From positions 1-64,000 of the forward strand of contig NZ_JAQSDY010000030.1 of the NCBI RefSeq assembly GCF_029946145.1: 64,000 nucleotides of DNA, given 5' to 3'. The first letter of the stretch is position 1; each line of letters begins with the position of its first letter. Origin of the DNA: Brevundimonas sp. Its GTDB lineage: Bacteria; Pseudomonadota; Alphaproteobacteria; Caulobacterales; Caulobacteraceae. The notes beneath the pieces are model-generated. The model had not been told where the DNA came from and did not search any database. It was given only the letters and a program-made list of their open reading frames with translations. This document shows positions 1,017-12,006 of this stretch, one piece after another. A program made the translations under genes and the position numbers.

Positions 1017-1676
1017 TCACGCCCCTCCAGCCGGCCGGACGCCCAGCTGAAGGTGTACCTCCTTGATCGGCGGAGGGGGCCTTGCTCCCTCGACAACCTC
1101 CACCACCGTTTGAGGAGGTTTGCGGGTGGCAAAACCACCGCGTACAACGTTCGAGAAAGTTGCAGCTAGTTCGATGAAGTTCTGGCGCTGATCGTTGGGC
1201 ATACAACAATCAGCATATCGGCGGGACTGAGACCCGCATCCGCATAGCTCATCGCCTCTACATTCGATCAGCCTGTAGTAGGCCGACACTTTCGGGTCGC
1301 CACCGGGGAGAGCGTACTGCCTTCCGGGCCAGCGGCCGAAAGCTTCTAGATGGAGGTGTCGGAGCGCCCAAACGCTATAGAGATCAAGCAGAGTTCGAAG
1401 ATCGCCGCCCTCGTGCCAGGCGCCGTCCGTCGGAGAGAAGGCGCAGACAGAGCCGTCGTGAAAATTGGTATGCCTCGGGCCTATCCAGCGCGGGGCACTG
1501 TCACCGGTCCAAAAAGCCCATGCGCGAGGGCCAGCATCTGCCCGATAAGGCAGAGCTACCAAGAACGTGGCTTCTCGATCGAGATCGGCGATGACCGAAC
1601 TCTTTGCAAGAAGCCACATCCCGTCTTCGTCGGGGTAGGTCCGGAGCGAGGGATACGCTTCGGCAAGCGCGGTCAC
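1017..1676 (-). CDS. E2 (UBC)-like protein with C-terminal SEC-C zinc motif
   Basis: I start this gene at a GTG that overlaps the stop of the upstream 48-aa ORF (GTGA), giving 219 aa; the ORF-track N-terminus beyond it looks spurious. The centre resembles the E2 ubiquitin-conjugating active-site region. It reads PRHTNFHDGSVCAF, compared with the HPN...G.IC pattern of E2s, then a conserved Trp (AWHEGGDL) and a leucine-rich helix (LRTLLDLYSVWALRHLHLE). The candidate catalytic Cys is in GSVCAF, about residue 81. The C-terminal part has CGCGSQSRRYADCC, a CxCGx8CC SEC-C-like zinc ligand set. No E1, JAB peptidase or ubiquitin-like protein is adjacent. The divergent neighbour is an HTH-ImmA/IrrE-type protein, which suggests a two-sided regulatory or defence module. 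The fold assignment is motif-based and needs a profile or structure search. Confidence 0.55.
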   Translation of the reverse strand: MTALAEAYPSLRTYPDEDGMWLLAKSSVIADLDREATFLVALPYRADAGPRAWAFWTGDSAPRWIGPRHTNFHDGSVCAFSPTDGAWHEGGDLRTLLDLYSVWALRHLHLEAFGRWPGRQYALPGGDPKVSAYYRLIECRGDELCGCGSQSRRYADCCMPNDQRQNFIELAATFSNVVRGGFATRKPPQTVVEVVEGARPPPPIKEVHLQLGVRPAGGA

Positions 1677-1819
1677 CTGAACTTCGTACGCGGCACGAAG
1701 TAGGTCGATGCCGATCCGTGCCCCGGCACCGGCCGGCCGTGGTCCACGGGCCTGCCCTTGCCGTCTGGCGGCCCCTTTCCGCGGTCGGGTTGCGGATCCT
1801 CGCGTTCCTTGTCTGCCAT
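1673..1819 (-). CDS. Small 48-aa ORF translationally coupled to the E2-like gene
   Basis: This ORF is too short for the supplied track. The ATG is preceded by AAAGGAG at seven-base spacing, one of the better ribosome binding sites in the island, and the stop overlaps the GTG of the E2-like gene by two bases of a GTGA. The 48-aa product is charged and rich in Gly and Pro (KGPPDGKGRPVDHGRPVPG) and ends in YFVPRTKFR. It is probably disordered and too short for a beta-grasp ubiquitin-like fold. It could be a substrate or partner of the E2-like protein, or a leader whose translation drives it. The real-gene call rests on the ribosome binding site and coupling only. Confidence 0.55.
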   Translation of the reverse strand: MADKEREDPQPDRGKGPPDGKGRPVDHGRPVPGHGSASTYFVPRTKFR

Positions 1820-2056
1820 CACCAGTCTCCTTTGTTTCGTTGGATGGGGACTCTCGACCCAAGGCGACGCGCCCTTGATCGTGCACTACGAGCAAACATT
1901 GCGTGTCGAGCGCAGCGCCAAGCTCGTGCAACACTGCCCGCGTACCCGTCCCGAAAGTCTCTTCCCTCGGAATCCCGGATGTGCGAGTCTGTGTCACCAG
2001 CACAAGCTGCGCCGCCGGCTGGGGTGTGTCAAGGCGTGTCGTTCGCACGGGGAAAG

Positions 2057-2998
2057 ATGCAGTCATTCCAGGAGAAGCTCGTTGAAGCCGTCAAACGGAA
2101 GCGAGAGGCCGAGGGACTAAGCATCCGTGCCTTGTCGGCAGCTGTCGGAATTAGCTTTTCTTCGCTGGCCCGGATCGAGCGCGGAGAGGGCCAGCCAGAT
2201 AACAACTCCAAGATTCGGTTGCTGCAGTGGCTCGGGACGGACGCCGAAGCGGCCGGCCTAGGGTTCGACAATGTCGCGTTCGTGCACTTTCGCGCAGGGA
2301 AAAACATTCAGTCGCCGACCGTTCAAGCGTTGCTGGAAGCGGCCGATTGTCTTCGCCGATCTCTTGGCAAAGTAGATGACCGCACGGCTCATGTAGCGGT
2401 CGAAGACAGTGCGTCCGAAAGCGCACCGCTATCGAAGGATGAGCTCGAGCAGATTGCGTACAAGTTCCGAGCGGACCTCGGACTAGCCGAGGCGCAGCCC
2501 ATTGATAGTCTAAAAATTGAGGTCGAGGGGGTAGAGGTAGTCCGTGCCGGACAGACGAACTGTCTTGATCAGAAGACGGTGGATTACCTTCGCGAGCGCG
2601 CGAGCGGAGAGTGGTCGGCGATGAGCGTGCCGTTGGACGTTGAGCATGAACGGTGGGCTGTCCTGTTGAACGATGGCCACACTTTGGAGCGCCAGCGCGT
2701 CACCGTTCTAGAAGAGTTCTGGCACATTCTGCTCGGCCACAAGCTCACGAAGATCGCACGGATAGCTGAGGCTTTCGGCCGGACGTACGACAAAACCGAG
2801 GAGCACGACGCCTACTACCTCGCCTCGGCGACCCTATTGCCCAAGGCCGCGTTGATAGAAGCCGTCGGCAAGAACCGCTCGTCCGAGCAAATCGCGGGGG
2901 TGTACGGCACGTCGTCTGAGCTCGTGGACTATCGCGTTAAACGCCTGGGCCTATGGCGAGAGCACGTAGGCAAGCGGGTCAGCCTGTCTTCCGACTGA
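2057..2998 (+). CDS. HTH-XRE / ImmA-IrrE-like metallopeptidase fusion
   Basis: The chosen ATG gives 313 aa (MQSFQEKLVEAV), dropping 151 spurious residues of the ORF track. Residues 1-70 are an XRE helix-turn-helix (LSIRALSAAVGISFSSLARIE). The C-terminal half follows the ImmA/IrrE layout, but the zinc motif reads VLEEFWHILLGH, with Glu where the first His of HExxH should be. That could be a metal-free regulator or a variant site. Family members with an attached HTH typically cleave or sense a partner and autoregulate. It is divergent from the small ORF/E2-like pair and shares a 237-bp intergenic region with it, where it probably binds. The motif LLGHKLTKI supports the family call. Confidence 0.72.
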   Translation: MQSFQEKLVEAVKRKREAEGLSIRALSAAVGISFSSLARIERGEGQPDNNSKIRLLQWLGTDAEAAGLGFDNVAFVHFRAGKNIQSPTVQALLEAADCLRRSLGKVDDRTAHVAVEDSASESAPLSKDELEQIAYKFRADLGLAEAQPIDSLKIEVEGVEVVRAGQTNCLDQKTVDYLRERASGEWSAMSVPLDVEHERWAVLLNDGHTLERQRVTVLEEFWHILLGHKLTKIARIAEAFGRTYDKTEEHDAYYLASATLLPKAALIEAVGKNRSSEQIAGVYGTSSELVDYRVKRLGLWREHVGKRVSLSSD

Positions 2999-5042: not shown

Positions 5043-6345
5043 GTGGATCGAACAGTCTTTCTCCGATTTGGTGGGGGGGCGTGAGAACGTCATCGGCGGG
5101 CCCTTCGGTTCAAACCTGACGTCCGCCCACTATACTGCATCTGGAGTTCCAATTGTTCGCGGAAGCAACATGGAACGTGCCGGGCGCTATCTCGGCGATG
5201 ATTTCGCATACGTGTCCGATTCAAAGGCCAAGTCATTAAAGACGAACCAGATTGCGGCAGGCGATCTTGTAGTCACTCAGCGAGGTACTCTAGGTCAGGT
5301 TTCAATTGCTCCTGAAATTGGACCGGCCCACTACGTAGTCTCCCAAAGCCAAATGGGAATTCATGTCACGTCAGCCAATCGGCTTTTCGTATATTACCTT
5401 CTGAAATCTCCGGCGTTCGATGAGTTTTTGGACGGGGCGGCAATTCAGACGGGCGTACCGCACATCAATCTGGGACTGCTCAGGCAGTGGCGAGTGAAGG
5501 CTCCGTCACGATTTGAGCAAGACGCGATCGCTGGCCTACTAGGAGCGCTAGACGACAAAATCGAACTTAGTCAGCGAATGGCGCAGACGCTTGAGGCGAT
5601 GGCACTAGCGCTCTTCAAAAACTGGTTCATAGATTTCGAACCAGTTCGGCGCAAAGCCGATGGTCGCAATCTAGGCCTTCCACACCACGTAGAAACATTT
5701 TTCCCTGCCGCGCTCTCCGAGGAGGGCCTGCCGGCAGGCTGGGGCCTGCAGACCGTCGGAGAAATGTTCGAGGTAAGTGGCGGCAATACACCGTCAACAA
5801 CCGAGCCTGACAACTGGAACGGATCGCATCAATGGGCGACACCGAAGGATTTGTCGTCCCTAACATCCCCTGTATTGCTTCAAACGGAGCGCCAAATTTC
5901 CGAGGCAGGATTGGCGCGGTCGACATCAGGACTCCTGCCGAAGGGAAGCCTACTGCTCTCCTCACGCGCTCCCATCGGCTACATGGCATTTGCGACCCGC
6001 CCCGTCGCAATCAACCAAGGATTCGCTGGGCTGGTACGCAAGAAAGTATCGACTGTGTACGCGTGGGCTTGGTGCGCAGCTCACATGGAGATGATCCGGG
6101 GTAATGCAGGCGGCTCTACTTTCCCTGAAATCAGCAAGTCTGTACTGCGCAACCTACCAATGCTCCGACCATCTGATGCGGTACTCACGGCCTTTGAAAC
6201 TACGTCAGAGCCTTTGGTCAGCCGAATGATCACAGCCGTAGAAGAAGCGGCTACGCTTGCGGATCTCAGAGACGCACTGCTTCCCCGCCTGATCTCGGGT
6301 GAGCTGCATATCCGAGACGCTGAAAATGCGGTTGCGGCAGCCTGA
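5032..6345 (+). CDS. hsdS: Type I restriction-modification specificity subunit
   Basis: A 437-aa HsdS with two target recognition domains separated by a conserved coiled-coil spacer (residues about 165-205, [20 protein letters not shown]) and a matching C-terminal helix ([19 protein letters not shown]). The two variable domains recognise the two halves of a bipartite DNA site, and the spacers set the gap length. The TRDs are less GC-rich than neighbouring genes, as expected for recombining specificity domains. It lies in the hsdM-hsdS-Abi_C-like-hsdR operon. The recognition sequence cannot be read from sequence alone. Confidence 0.95.
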
Positions 6346-6346
6346 C

Positions 6347-7039
6347 ATGGCGTACTCCCTGCAAATGCTCCGCGCCTTGATTGAGGCTCACCCTGATCGG
6401 GCAGAGCGGCTTACCCCGCACGTCGAGGCTCTTGAAGTCAGCATTCAGAGCCAGCCGGCCTTCTGCCTCCAGAATGTCAGAACCTTGTTTGAAGCCGCGC
6501 ATGCCACGATCGCGCCCCAGTTAGGAATCGAGTTCCCAAGTCGGGCCGGATTTCCGGACCGAATGCGGGGTGTCATCGACGCACTCGATTTCTCCGTCGC
6601 AGATCATCCCGACGCCGCGACCATTCACACTCACGTTCAGTCACTGGTTGCCGCCATCAACGACATGGCTGTGGCCCTCGCCCGGCTAAGCAACGTGCCC
6701 AACATGCGCCATGGCGGTTCCCTGGATTGGGGTACCCTGGAACGTCAACACGCGACGATGCTGGGTGGGTTGTGCGACAGCTTGGTTAGTTTCCTTTTCG
6801 ACGTCGCTTGGAGCCGCCCTCTCGCCCTCGATGAGGATGCCCAGCCCGCGATCTTCGAAGACTTCGCGGACTTCAATGAATGGCTCGATGACGTAAATGG
6901 ACCAGTCGAAGTCGCTGGCTCGACCTTTCGCGCGAGCCGAGTCCTGTATCTGCTCGATCCTCTGAAGCACGAAGCGGGACGTGCCGACTGGTATACCAGA
7001 GCCGCGGCCGGCACCGCTGAAGACGAGGAAGCTGCGTGA
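6347..7039 (+). CDS. Abi_C-like protein embedded in the type I RM operon
   Basis: Start placed at the ATG one base after the hsdS stop (230 aa, MAYSLQMLRAL); the track's GTG start lies inside hsdS. The protein is mainly helical and acidic. Its middle (FEAAHATIAPQLG, then NVPNMRHGGSLDWG and RQHATMLGGLCDSLVSFLF) resembles the abortive-infection C-terminal (Abi_C) pattern, in which an Arg-rich LRN/HG turn precedes a helix ending in a hydrophobic run. Its stop overlaps hsdR by four bases, so it is co-translated with the R-M subunits. It may guard or modulate the restriction system. The family call is tentative. Confidence 0.5.
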   Translation: MAYSLQMLRALIEAHPDRAERLTPHVEALEVSIQSQPAFCLQNVRTLFEAAHATIAPQLGIEFPSRAGFPDRMRGVIDALDFSVADHPDAATIHTHVQSLVAAINDMAVALARLSNVPNMRHGGSLDWGTLERQHATMLGGLCDSLVSFLFDVAWSRPLALDEDAQPAIFEDFADFNEWLDDVNGPVEVAGSTFRASRVLYLLDPLKHEAGRADWYTRAAAGTAEDEEAA

Positions 7040-10450: not shown

Positions 10451-10532
10451 GCGCGGGCGGCGGGGTCGACCCGGCAATCCTTTCGGAACTGGATTCTGAT
10501 CCAGCGCGTCTACCAATTCCACCACACCCGTG
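10451..10532 (-). pseudogene. Decayed tRNA-Leu copy (probably CAG type)
   Basis: Nearly the whole of a tRNA-Leu can be aligned here to the gene at 623-707, including acceptor, D-arm, variable arm and T-arm. The anticodon hairpin reads CTGGATCAGAATCCAG, one base short of the usual loop around CAG. The T-arm has lost another base, the first acceptor pair is A.C and the discriminator/CCA is absent. It is unlikely to be functional. It sits inside the island just downstream of the integrase gene and may be the remnant of an older attachment site. Confidence 0.75.
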
Positions 10533-10592
10533 TCGTAAAGAAGAATGGCGGCTCGGCGATAGGTCGCCAATCACTTTGCCCAGCAATCGTGT

Positions 10593-11837
10593 TCACAAGG
10601 ATGGGCGTTCGCCCGGTGGGGTCGAGCGGGTTCCCGCTCTTCGGCTCGGCTTAGGACGCCGAACGTTGATGGCCGACGCGTCGATCATATTCTTGATGTG
10701 GGACGCATAGTATTTCTCGATCATCTCGACGCTGGTTCGGCAGTTTTTGGCGATCTGGTAGATGTCAGCACCTTCCATGAGGCGCATGGAAATGTAGGAG
10801 TGGCGCAAGCTGTAGGCGGTGCGCACCTGACCATCCCTGTCGCGCTTGAGGTCCAGCTCTTCCAGCACCGTATTGAGCAGCTCGCGCGGCGTGCAGCCAA
10901 AGACCTTTTCGGTGGGCCTGGGCGCCTTCGCACCGGCTGCTGTGTTCCGTTGAACGAGACGCCGAAACGGCTGCACGGCACCCGGCATGCTCTTGCAAAA
11001 GCCGACGCCGCGTTTGCCCCTCACCTCGATCTCGAGGATCCGCTCGCCGCTGTCATCGTCGAGGACGATCTCAACATCCCGGAACTCCAGGCGACCCGCC
11101 TCGTCTGGGCGCAGACCTGTGTTGACCATGAACAGAACGTAGTCGTGCAGGCGCAGGCTTTCGAAGGTCCAGCGCCCTCTGTTGTGCCGAGGGTTGGCGG
11201 CTCGTTCGCGTGTGGCCTCGTAGAGGAGCTTGTATTCGGCCGGCGAGAACCATGCCCGGTGAACGATCTTGCCTGATGTTTTGTACGGGGTGGAAAGGTC
11301 GGGAAGAATGGCTAGCCAGCCATGTCTATTGGCTGTCTTCAGGACCTGACGGAGCGTCACGATCTCGTGGTGCAGTGTCGTGCGGGCAGGTCGCTTCGGC
11401 TCGCCGGTTTTCGGGTTGAGCCGGGATGTCATCCGGTGAACCCGGTACTCCTGCACCAGCCCGGGAGTGATCTCGCTCAGCAGCTTGTCTCCGAAGAAGG
11501 GATAGAGGTGAACCCTCAGCCGATCACTGTGTCCTTTGACGTACTCCGGGTTCCGCTCACCCAGAGTGAGGGCTTCGTACTCGCGCACGAACTGCTCTCC
11601 ACCCTCCCTGAATGTCTTGCCAGATCGCTTAGGGGCGATGCCGCCGCCGAAACGGTGTTTGCCTTGAAGGGTGAGAAACCAATCCTCGGCGAAGTCTTTC
11701 GCCAGAGCGAGACTCTCTTGCTTCGTGGTGCTGCGGAACTGGCGCCCGCCCACGGACGCGGAGCACTGCCAGTGCGGGCTGTTCGGCCGCTTGAAGACCT
11801 GAACTTTGCCGCCAAGGAGCGCGTGTCGAGTGGTCAT
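10593..11837 (-). CDS. int: Tyrosine-type integrase of the island
   Basis: A phage-type integrase of about 414 aa. The second in-frame ATG is preferred because GGAGG lies nine bases before it; the first (11,852) has no ribosome binding site. It has an N-terminal arm-binding region, a core-binding domain, and a catalytic domain with NTGLRPDEAG (first Arg), YSLRHS (Arg-His, with Tyr in place of the first His), and the nucleophile in MIEKYYASH. It catalyses exchange between the tRNA-Leu attachment sites. It lies 120 bases inside the right repeat, the normal position for an island integrase. The catalytic residues look intact. Confidence 0.93.
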   Translation of the reverse strand: MTTRHALLGGKVQVFKRPNSPHWQCSASVGGRQFRSTTKQESLALAKDFAEDWFLTLQGKHRFGGGIAPKRSGKTFREGGEQFVREYEALTLGERNPEYVKGHSDRLRVHLYPFFGDKLLSEITPGLVQEYRVHRMTSRLNPKTGEPKRPARTTLHHEIVTLRQVLKTANRHGWLAILPDLSTPYKTSGKIVHRAWFSPAEYKLLYEATRERAANPRHNRGRWTFESLRLHDYVLFMVNTGLRPDEAGRLEFRDVEIVLDDDSGERILEIEVRGKRGVGFCKSMPGAVQPFRRLVQRNTAAGAKAPRPTEKVFGCTPRELLNTVLEELDLKRDRDGQVRTAYSLRHSYISMRLMEGADIYQIAKNCRTSVEMIEKYYASHIKNMIDASAINVRRPKPSRRAGTRSTPPGERPSL

Positions 11838-11959
11838 CGACAGGGCCTCCATATTGCGCTGTTTGCGCTAGCACTGCGCTAGGCGCTTGCCGCACCATAG
11901 AGCCAGAAAAATGCTATGAAATCAATATGACGTCAGTAAATTTGACGTGATTGACGGGC

Positions 11960-12006
11960 TTTTGAGTCCAGCGCGTCTACCAATTCCACCACGCCCGCAC
12001 AGGCCG
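11960..12006. repeat. Island right attachment repeat (attR)
   Basis: It matches 669-715 with three mismatches and contains only the 5' half of a tRNA-Leu gene, from anticodon loop to acceptor start. It is the displaced original 5' half of the target gene. One of its changes (GCGGGCG instead of GCGGGTG) would break an acceptor pair with the present 3' half, consistent with drift after displacement. Confidence 0.83.

Follow-up and report, generated by a model that had tools for sequence, protein, structure and literature searches.

An E2-like bacterial gene with a nested small ORF and a divergent regulator: a candidate inducible modification module

How can a gene for an E2-like protein work when no E1 gene accompanies it, and what is the small ORF at its head? 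This question is raised by the locus at positions 1017-2998 of the window, i.e., the whole stretch of 64,000 nucleotides analysed here, which comes from an alphaproteobacterium with a genome of about 3.5 Mb. The preliminary description read the locus as a 48-aa ORF followed by a 219-aa E2-like protein, which would start at GTG 1676. That gene model was wrong on both counts: the E2 frame is open and conserved up to about 1934, and the 48-aa ORF (here ORF B) is overprinted inside a gene for a protein of about 300 aa. The gene is organized as follows.

1017-1934, minus strand: E2-like gene over its whole frame, comprising segment A, a linker, the E2-like domain and the SEC-C tail (305 aa if GTG 1934 is the start)
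1845-1934, minus strand: segment A, consensus LxxIGxQLDxxxFPxVxNGGIVxP, with a predicted helix and two short strands; conserved in 36 homologues
1828-1833, minus strand: Shine-Dalgarno sequence AAGGAG of B; an SD-like box lies 6-8 nt before the ATG in 67/68 loci
1674-1820, minus strand: overprinted 48-aa ORF B, MADKEREDPQPDRGKGPPDGKGRPVDHGRPVPGHGSASTYFVPRTKFR, with its ATG and its +1 frame relative to the E2 gene kept in 68/68 readable loci and both frames under selection

In the window, B starts with the ATG at 1820 and ends in a GTGA stop/start overlap at 1674-1676. Of the 70 loci collected, 68 have an open, conserved E2 frame; the apparent exceptions, L018 and L069, carry ordinary indels after B, inside the E2 part. 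In 68/68 loci, no stop interrupts the E2 frame over B or over at least the 20 codons that precede it. No ATG, GTG or TTG occurs in the E2 frame between the start of B and helix alpha-1 of the E2 domain (39/39 dereplicated loci), and this first helix already overlaps the end of B; therefore, translation of the E2 protein has to begin upstream of B, which makes B an overprinted ORF. The missing start codons were used only to show this upstream start. As evidence of selection they were rejected, since they follow from the composition of B (simulated chance of none = 1.0). For the long frame, it is uncertain in the window's clade which codon serves as the start; in the window, the GTG at position 1934 is the leading standard candidate. 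The geometry of the pair is constant: in many distant loci the ATG of segment A lies exactly 47 codons before B, and in most loci the end of B is separated from the WIGPRHTN active-site block by 186 nt. The NGG of segment A was considered as a possible GG motif and rejected, as only one Gly is invariant.

Selection on both frames of the overlap was assessed on 39 dereplicated loci of large divergence (GC3 0.32 to 0.70). With the amino acids of B fixed and codons drawn from the usage of each locus, the E2 frame over B should have contained 112 stops and contained none (nominal log10 P -62; such P values overstate independence because the loci share ancestry), while the third frame had 41 stops. 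In the converse test, with the E2-frame protein fixed, 23 stops were expected in the frame of B and none were found. Amino acid conservation points in the same direction. With the E2 frame held fixed, the conservation of the B core was 3.82 against a null of -0.48 +/- 0.07, and the conservation of the E2 frame over the B core codons was 0.62 against -0.05 +/- 0.07, so that at the core GRPVxPHRSSAQ both frames exceed the synonymous null. Both frames are thus under selection over the overlap, as is required of an overprinted pair. Fully nested same-strand genes with deep conservation are rare in bacteria. Nevertheless, on this comparative sequence evidence we regard the overprinting of B inside the E2 gene as near certain.

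The B protein is of low complexity, being rich in P, G, K and H, and its most conserved motif, the core named above, is internal. In Burkholderiaceae (L060, L064 and L037), the variable half consists of a repeat rich in His and Gly, HGTGHSHGHHGHP, and the GRP[VI]xPHRSSAQ end is kept.

The larger product contains the two elements from which the preliminary description had recognized it, an E2-like active-site pattern (HTNFHDGSVC, then Trp) fused to a SEC-C zinc set (CGCG...CC in the window). Both are present on the minus strand, in the frame ending at 1017.

1443-1472, minus strand: putative active site HTNFHDGSVC, comprising H155, N157 and C164 of the 305-aa protein, all invariant columns
1293-1727, minus strand: E2-like (UBC-like) domain, based on PADLOC E2 models, a domain model and the Foldseek match 8tz0_C
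1203-1244, minus strand: SEC-C zinc motif CGCGSQSRRYADCC, with C231, C233 and C243 invariant and C244 at least 90% conserved

The HTN and the Cys are kept in 69/69 readable loci and the downstream Trp is invariant in the alignment, so the E2 arrangement of a catalytic Cys with an upstream HxN and a downstream Trp is present. Eight of the nine PADLOC families matched by the E2-like family are E2 models, the best at 2.4e-4, and the window's own ORF reached 0.0099 against a PADLOC E2 model. An hhalign comparison with CBASS E2s aligned the active-site stretch at E 0.02 and a probability of 2%. Pfam gave no domain in the window's E2-like ORF and no E2 match in the family, and a sequence search of solved structures with the E2-like protein returned nothing meaningful. 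The full-length 305-aa protein was modelled by AlphaFold (AF2) with pLDDT 85.5 and pTM 0.81. In this model, segment A is predicted to be ordered (residues 1-20 at pLDDT of about 95), residues 31-70 or so, mostly the part overlapping B, are poorly ordered, and after about residue 70 an alpha-beta4-alpha layout is followed by a helical tail with the zinc set. The E2-like domain alone was predicted with the same alpha-beta4-alpha layout (pLDDT 86.1). Foldseek found no significant match for the E2-like protein; among the matches listed, the bacterial E2 8tz0_C had the best TM (0.44, E = 1.0). The E2-like fold expected by the preliminary description is thus less well supported than its other elements: AlphaFold predicts the right layout with high confidence, but the structural match is not significant and E2 profiles match at 2e-4 at best. 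Based on the above results, E2 homology is likely: it is weak by profile and fold and not proven as such, the active site is conserved and the modelled fold is plausible.

The CxCx(8-9)CC zinc set of the SEC-C domain is found in the tail, and the Pfam SEC-C match is weak, reaching at best E 0.01, and is seen in two homologues. The CxC...CC zinc motif is common to SEC-C domain proteins such as the SecA tail, YecA and YchJ. By analogy with SecA and YecA, the tail may serve in recruitment to ribosomes or nascent chains.

The source genome has two further E2-type matches, at G000:C10:42951-43229 and G000:C29:73932-74333. The former follows a 406-aa CD-NTase-like ORF with an ImmA-like ORF nearby, and no E1 gene was recognized beside it.

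To what extent do these genes travel together? A pattern scan with the first alignment on one-genome-per-species data provided 65 further loci. In the resulting 70 loci, the E2-like gene with its nested ORF occurs far above chance, and the divergent regulator accompanies it at most of them. The co-occurrence of enzyme and regulator genes outside this strain, on which the preliminary description had made its reading depend, is therefore strong. The loci belong mainly to alpha-, beta- and gamma-proteobacteria, with others in Geobacteraceae and further deltaproteobacteria and in one Flavobacteriales MAG. Relatives were found by tblastn on plasmids of Rhizobium, Sinorhizobium and Sulfitobacter, and in both annotated records a divergent HTH regulator is annotated beside them. 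The distribution is patchy: 1/200 genomes in the search of relatives, which is the window's own genome, and 3/385 at class level, own genome included, one of the three being an unrelated weak match. No viral relatives were found in IMG/VR or in phage records. A tblastn search of plasmids for B alone gave no match and is uninformative, since the short, low-complexity query missed even the known plasmid copies. In the neighbourhood comparison, the constant members were the E2 gene, B and the regulator only; no E1, JAB, ubiquitin-like protein or CD-NTase was conserved near the E2-like gene in the 70 loci, which agrees with the earlier remark that the module has no E1 or JAB.

The regulator faces the pair across a short intergenic region.

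2057-2998, plus strand: divergent HTH-ImmA regulator (Pfam HTH_3, 3.7e-9; Peptidase_M78, 3.7e-15), in an equal position in homologous loci
1980-2049, no strand assigned: conserved operator/promoter-like block (TGTGCGA ... TTGACACA ... TGTGCTGGTGACACAGACTCGCACA), from the alignment of 11 related intergenic regions

The facing HTH-ImmA gene is thus as previously described. The shared promoter gap holds as a distance of 236 bp from the ATG of B (1820) to that of the HTH gene (2057); however, because the E2 frame is open and conserved up to about 1934, the true gap between the E2 gene and the regulator is about 120 bp. Within this gap lie a conserved TTGACACA box and the half-sites TGTGCGA/TCGCACA. 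A reading of 'VLVTQTRT' upstream of segment A in the window's clade as protein was rejected, as an operator explains the conservation better.

The type of regulator varies by locus: a fused HTH-ImmA protein, an HTH protein plus an ImmA protein with HExxH (CapH/CapP-like), an RmrA-like protein or a WYL protein, and a few loci have none of these. Strong PADLOC matches were obtained at L033 (capP 8e-75, capH 2e-29), L047 (capP 3.8e-63) and L058 (RmrA 1.2e-50), and WYL regulators were found at L049, L030 and L032. The window's regulator has weak capP and RmrA scores, and its zinc motif reads EEFWH in place of HExxH. The fused HTH-ImmA group, which includes the window and several other lineages, reads EExWH; in this group, judging by the motif, the ImmA domain may lack protease activity or have an altered ligand set. 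The CapH/CapP arrangement of an HTH repressor and an ImmA protease with HExxH is not found in the window, HExxH being present at other loci of the family, and the EEFWH motif makes proteolytic derepression in the window doubtful. On the E2 tree, the regulator type changes about 15 times, and for WYL at least five changes are forced by well-supported branches. L014 and L016 have near-identical E2 genes and unrelated regulators (ImmA-type vs. WYL), a recent swap. CapW and CapH+CapP control BREX, Pycsar, CBASS, DISARM and Bub operons upon DNA damage via ssDNA (PMC13373217). It is mainly these regulator types, i.e., guilt by association, that lead us to propose an inducible defence or stress module.

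The earlier placement of the module in an island beside a type I RM operon was also confirmed. The island, of about 11.3 kb, contains the module, the RM operon and a tyrosine integrase, and its limits are marked by a tRNA gene and repeats of its end.

623-707: tRNA-Leu(CAA), bounding the island
10461-10536 and 11954-12003: two partial copies of the tRNA end
10593-11852: tyrosine integrase

The ORF at 6299-7039, between hsdS and hsdR, has a weak Abi_C match (8e-5, just under the cut-off), a weak indication that the type I RM operon may include an abortive-infection-like protein. A VapC-like PIN-domain ORF (29-556) lies just outside the island. At selected homologous loci, SIR2-short-Argonaute, type I and type IIG RM, type II methylases and the candidate system PDC-S06 lie nearby. 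Such surroundings speak, together with the regulator type, for an anti-phage role; the neighbours were picked by eye, and thus no enrichment of defence genes is claimed. The flanks of other loci look like housekeeping genes, so a defence neighbourhood is not universal.

Based on the sequence comparisons above, we suggest, as the more probable interpretation, an inducible E2-type modification module, probably serving in defence, that is spread horizontally and consists of a repressor and an overprinted enzyme/partner pair. A DNA-damage/stress-type repressor would control one transcript, from which two proteins would be made in overlapping frames: an E2-like cysteine enzyme of about 300 aa with a SEC-C zinc tail, and the disordered B protein of about 48 aa, initiated at its own ribosome-binding site within the E2 gene. 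Stress, DNA damage or phage attack would inactivate the repressor. Then, the E2-like protein would form a thioester on C164 and modify a target, the SEC-C tail perhaps directing it to ribosomes or other partners. B would act as an obligate partner, an inhibitor, an activator or a substrate, probably present in excess and bound via GRPVxPHRSSAQ. Because of the overprinting, the two proteins would remain inseparable and their dosage would be coupled. It should be noted that no E1 is linked that could charge the cysteine, which counts against an E2 module.

Of the two guesses in the preliminary description, the 'modification-and-regulation unit' comes closer to this interpretation than the toxin-antitoxin-like pair. 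In the latter, which we consider unlikely, a toxic E2-like cysteine enzyme would be covered by B as antitoxin, and the regulator would add transcriptional control. Such a pair would suit a small, well-initiated partner that is locked to a larger enzyme and always present where the E2 gene is, and it would suit the location of the module on islands and plasmids. However, B lies inside the enzyme gene instead of forming a separate gene, and the regulators are of the immune-operon type.

In an improbable alternative, B would be a modifier resembling ubiquitin or Pup, or a substrate dedicated to the enzyme, and the E2-like protein would attach it to targets, perhaps after charging by a housekeeping E1 of the ThiF/MoeB type. 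The invariant HTN and Cys are those of active E2s, ThiF-family proteins are encoded in the source genome, and E2-type conjugation of a protein without a ubiquitin fold has a precedent in CBASS (PMC10097602). Nevertheless, the C-terminal residue of B varies (S, A, R, N or K) and neither G nor GG is found there, which argues against a classical ubiquitin-like modifier; in addition, the most conserved part of B is internal and the operon has no E1.

Programmed frameshifting that fuses segment A with B (or B with E2), in place of initiation at the ATG of B, has very little probability. Segment A does immediately precede B, the former in frame 0 and the latter in +1, and B has an SD-like box in front of it. 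Yet a +1 stop occurs 0-2 codons before the ATG of B in 6/39 dereplicated loci and within 10 codons in 17/39, so that hardly any space, or none, is left for a slip; inspection by eye revealed no slippery site, and segment A runs in frame into E2 in 39/39. Least credible is that the E2 frame alone is real and that an RNA element or composition lies behind the conservation of B: such deep same-strand overlaps are indeed rare and B is of low complexity, but its ATG, SD box and stop-free frame are kept across the loci and, with the E2 frame fixed, its amino acids are conserved far beyond the null.

Existing annotation bears on why such a module would have escaped notice. Searches of Pfam, NCBIfam, PADLOC and the literature, the last of which covered few subscription papers and preprints, brought up no matching system. 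The R. etli record (L002, 5843-6678) has only B and a shortened E2 annotated, and the Sulfitobacter record (L004, about 5820-6585) has neither. Of the overprinted pair, one protein or both may be missed by gene callers, and this could explain the absence of Pfam and NCBIfam families and of a dedicated PADLOC model. More speculatively, and with less confidence than in the inducible module itself, we propose that the locus could represent a new class of E1-independent bacterial E2 system with an overprinted modifier, substrate or controller, induced through a DNA-damage-type immune regulator and missed as gene callers reject nested frames. In the module, a deeply conserved nested gene goes together with an E2-like enzyme and with regulators that are known as activators of immune operons; if the enzyme does act with its overprinted partner and without an E1, bacterial ubiquitin-like chemistry would be extended.

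Among known systems, type II CBASS Cap2 and the E2-only CBASS genes (PADLOC PDLC00858, 00867 and 00869) share with the module the E2-like domain and the H...C...W layout, and CapH/CapP- and WYL-type regulators occur at homologous module loci as they do in CBASS. Unlike CBASS, the module has no CD-NTase, effector or E1/JAB (none conserved in the 70 loci). The CBASS E2s aligned here have an HVY-type motif, whereas the module's protein has HTN and adds the SEC-C tail, the N-terminal segment A and the overprinted protein. The Bil and Bub operons likewise include an E2-type enzyme, and regulation by CapW or CapH+CapP has been reported for Bub (PMC13373217); however, the ubiquitin-like protein, E1 and DUB of these operons are not conserved around the module.

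With respect to the CapH+CapP, CapW/BrxR and RmrA regulators, the likeness lies in the strong capH/capP, RmrA or WYL matches at several homologous loci, whereas the window's fused HTH-ImmA protein differs in its EEFWH motif and low capP/RmrA scores. The SEC-C proteins (SecA tail, YecA and YchJ) have the same CxC...CC motif, which in the module is joined to an E2-like domain and scores marginally in Pfam. Finally, as in the few overprinted genes described in E. coli (PMC4683798), one stretch of DNA encodes two proteins in different frames. The E. coli gene is an orphan of recent origin, whereas the pair described here is conserved across several phyla with a fixed geometry.
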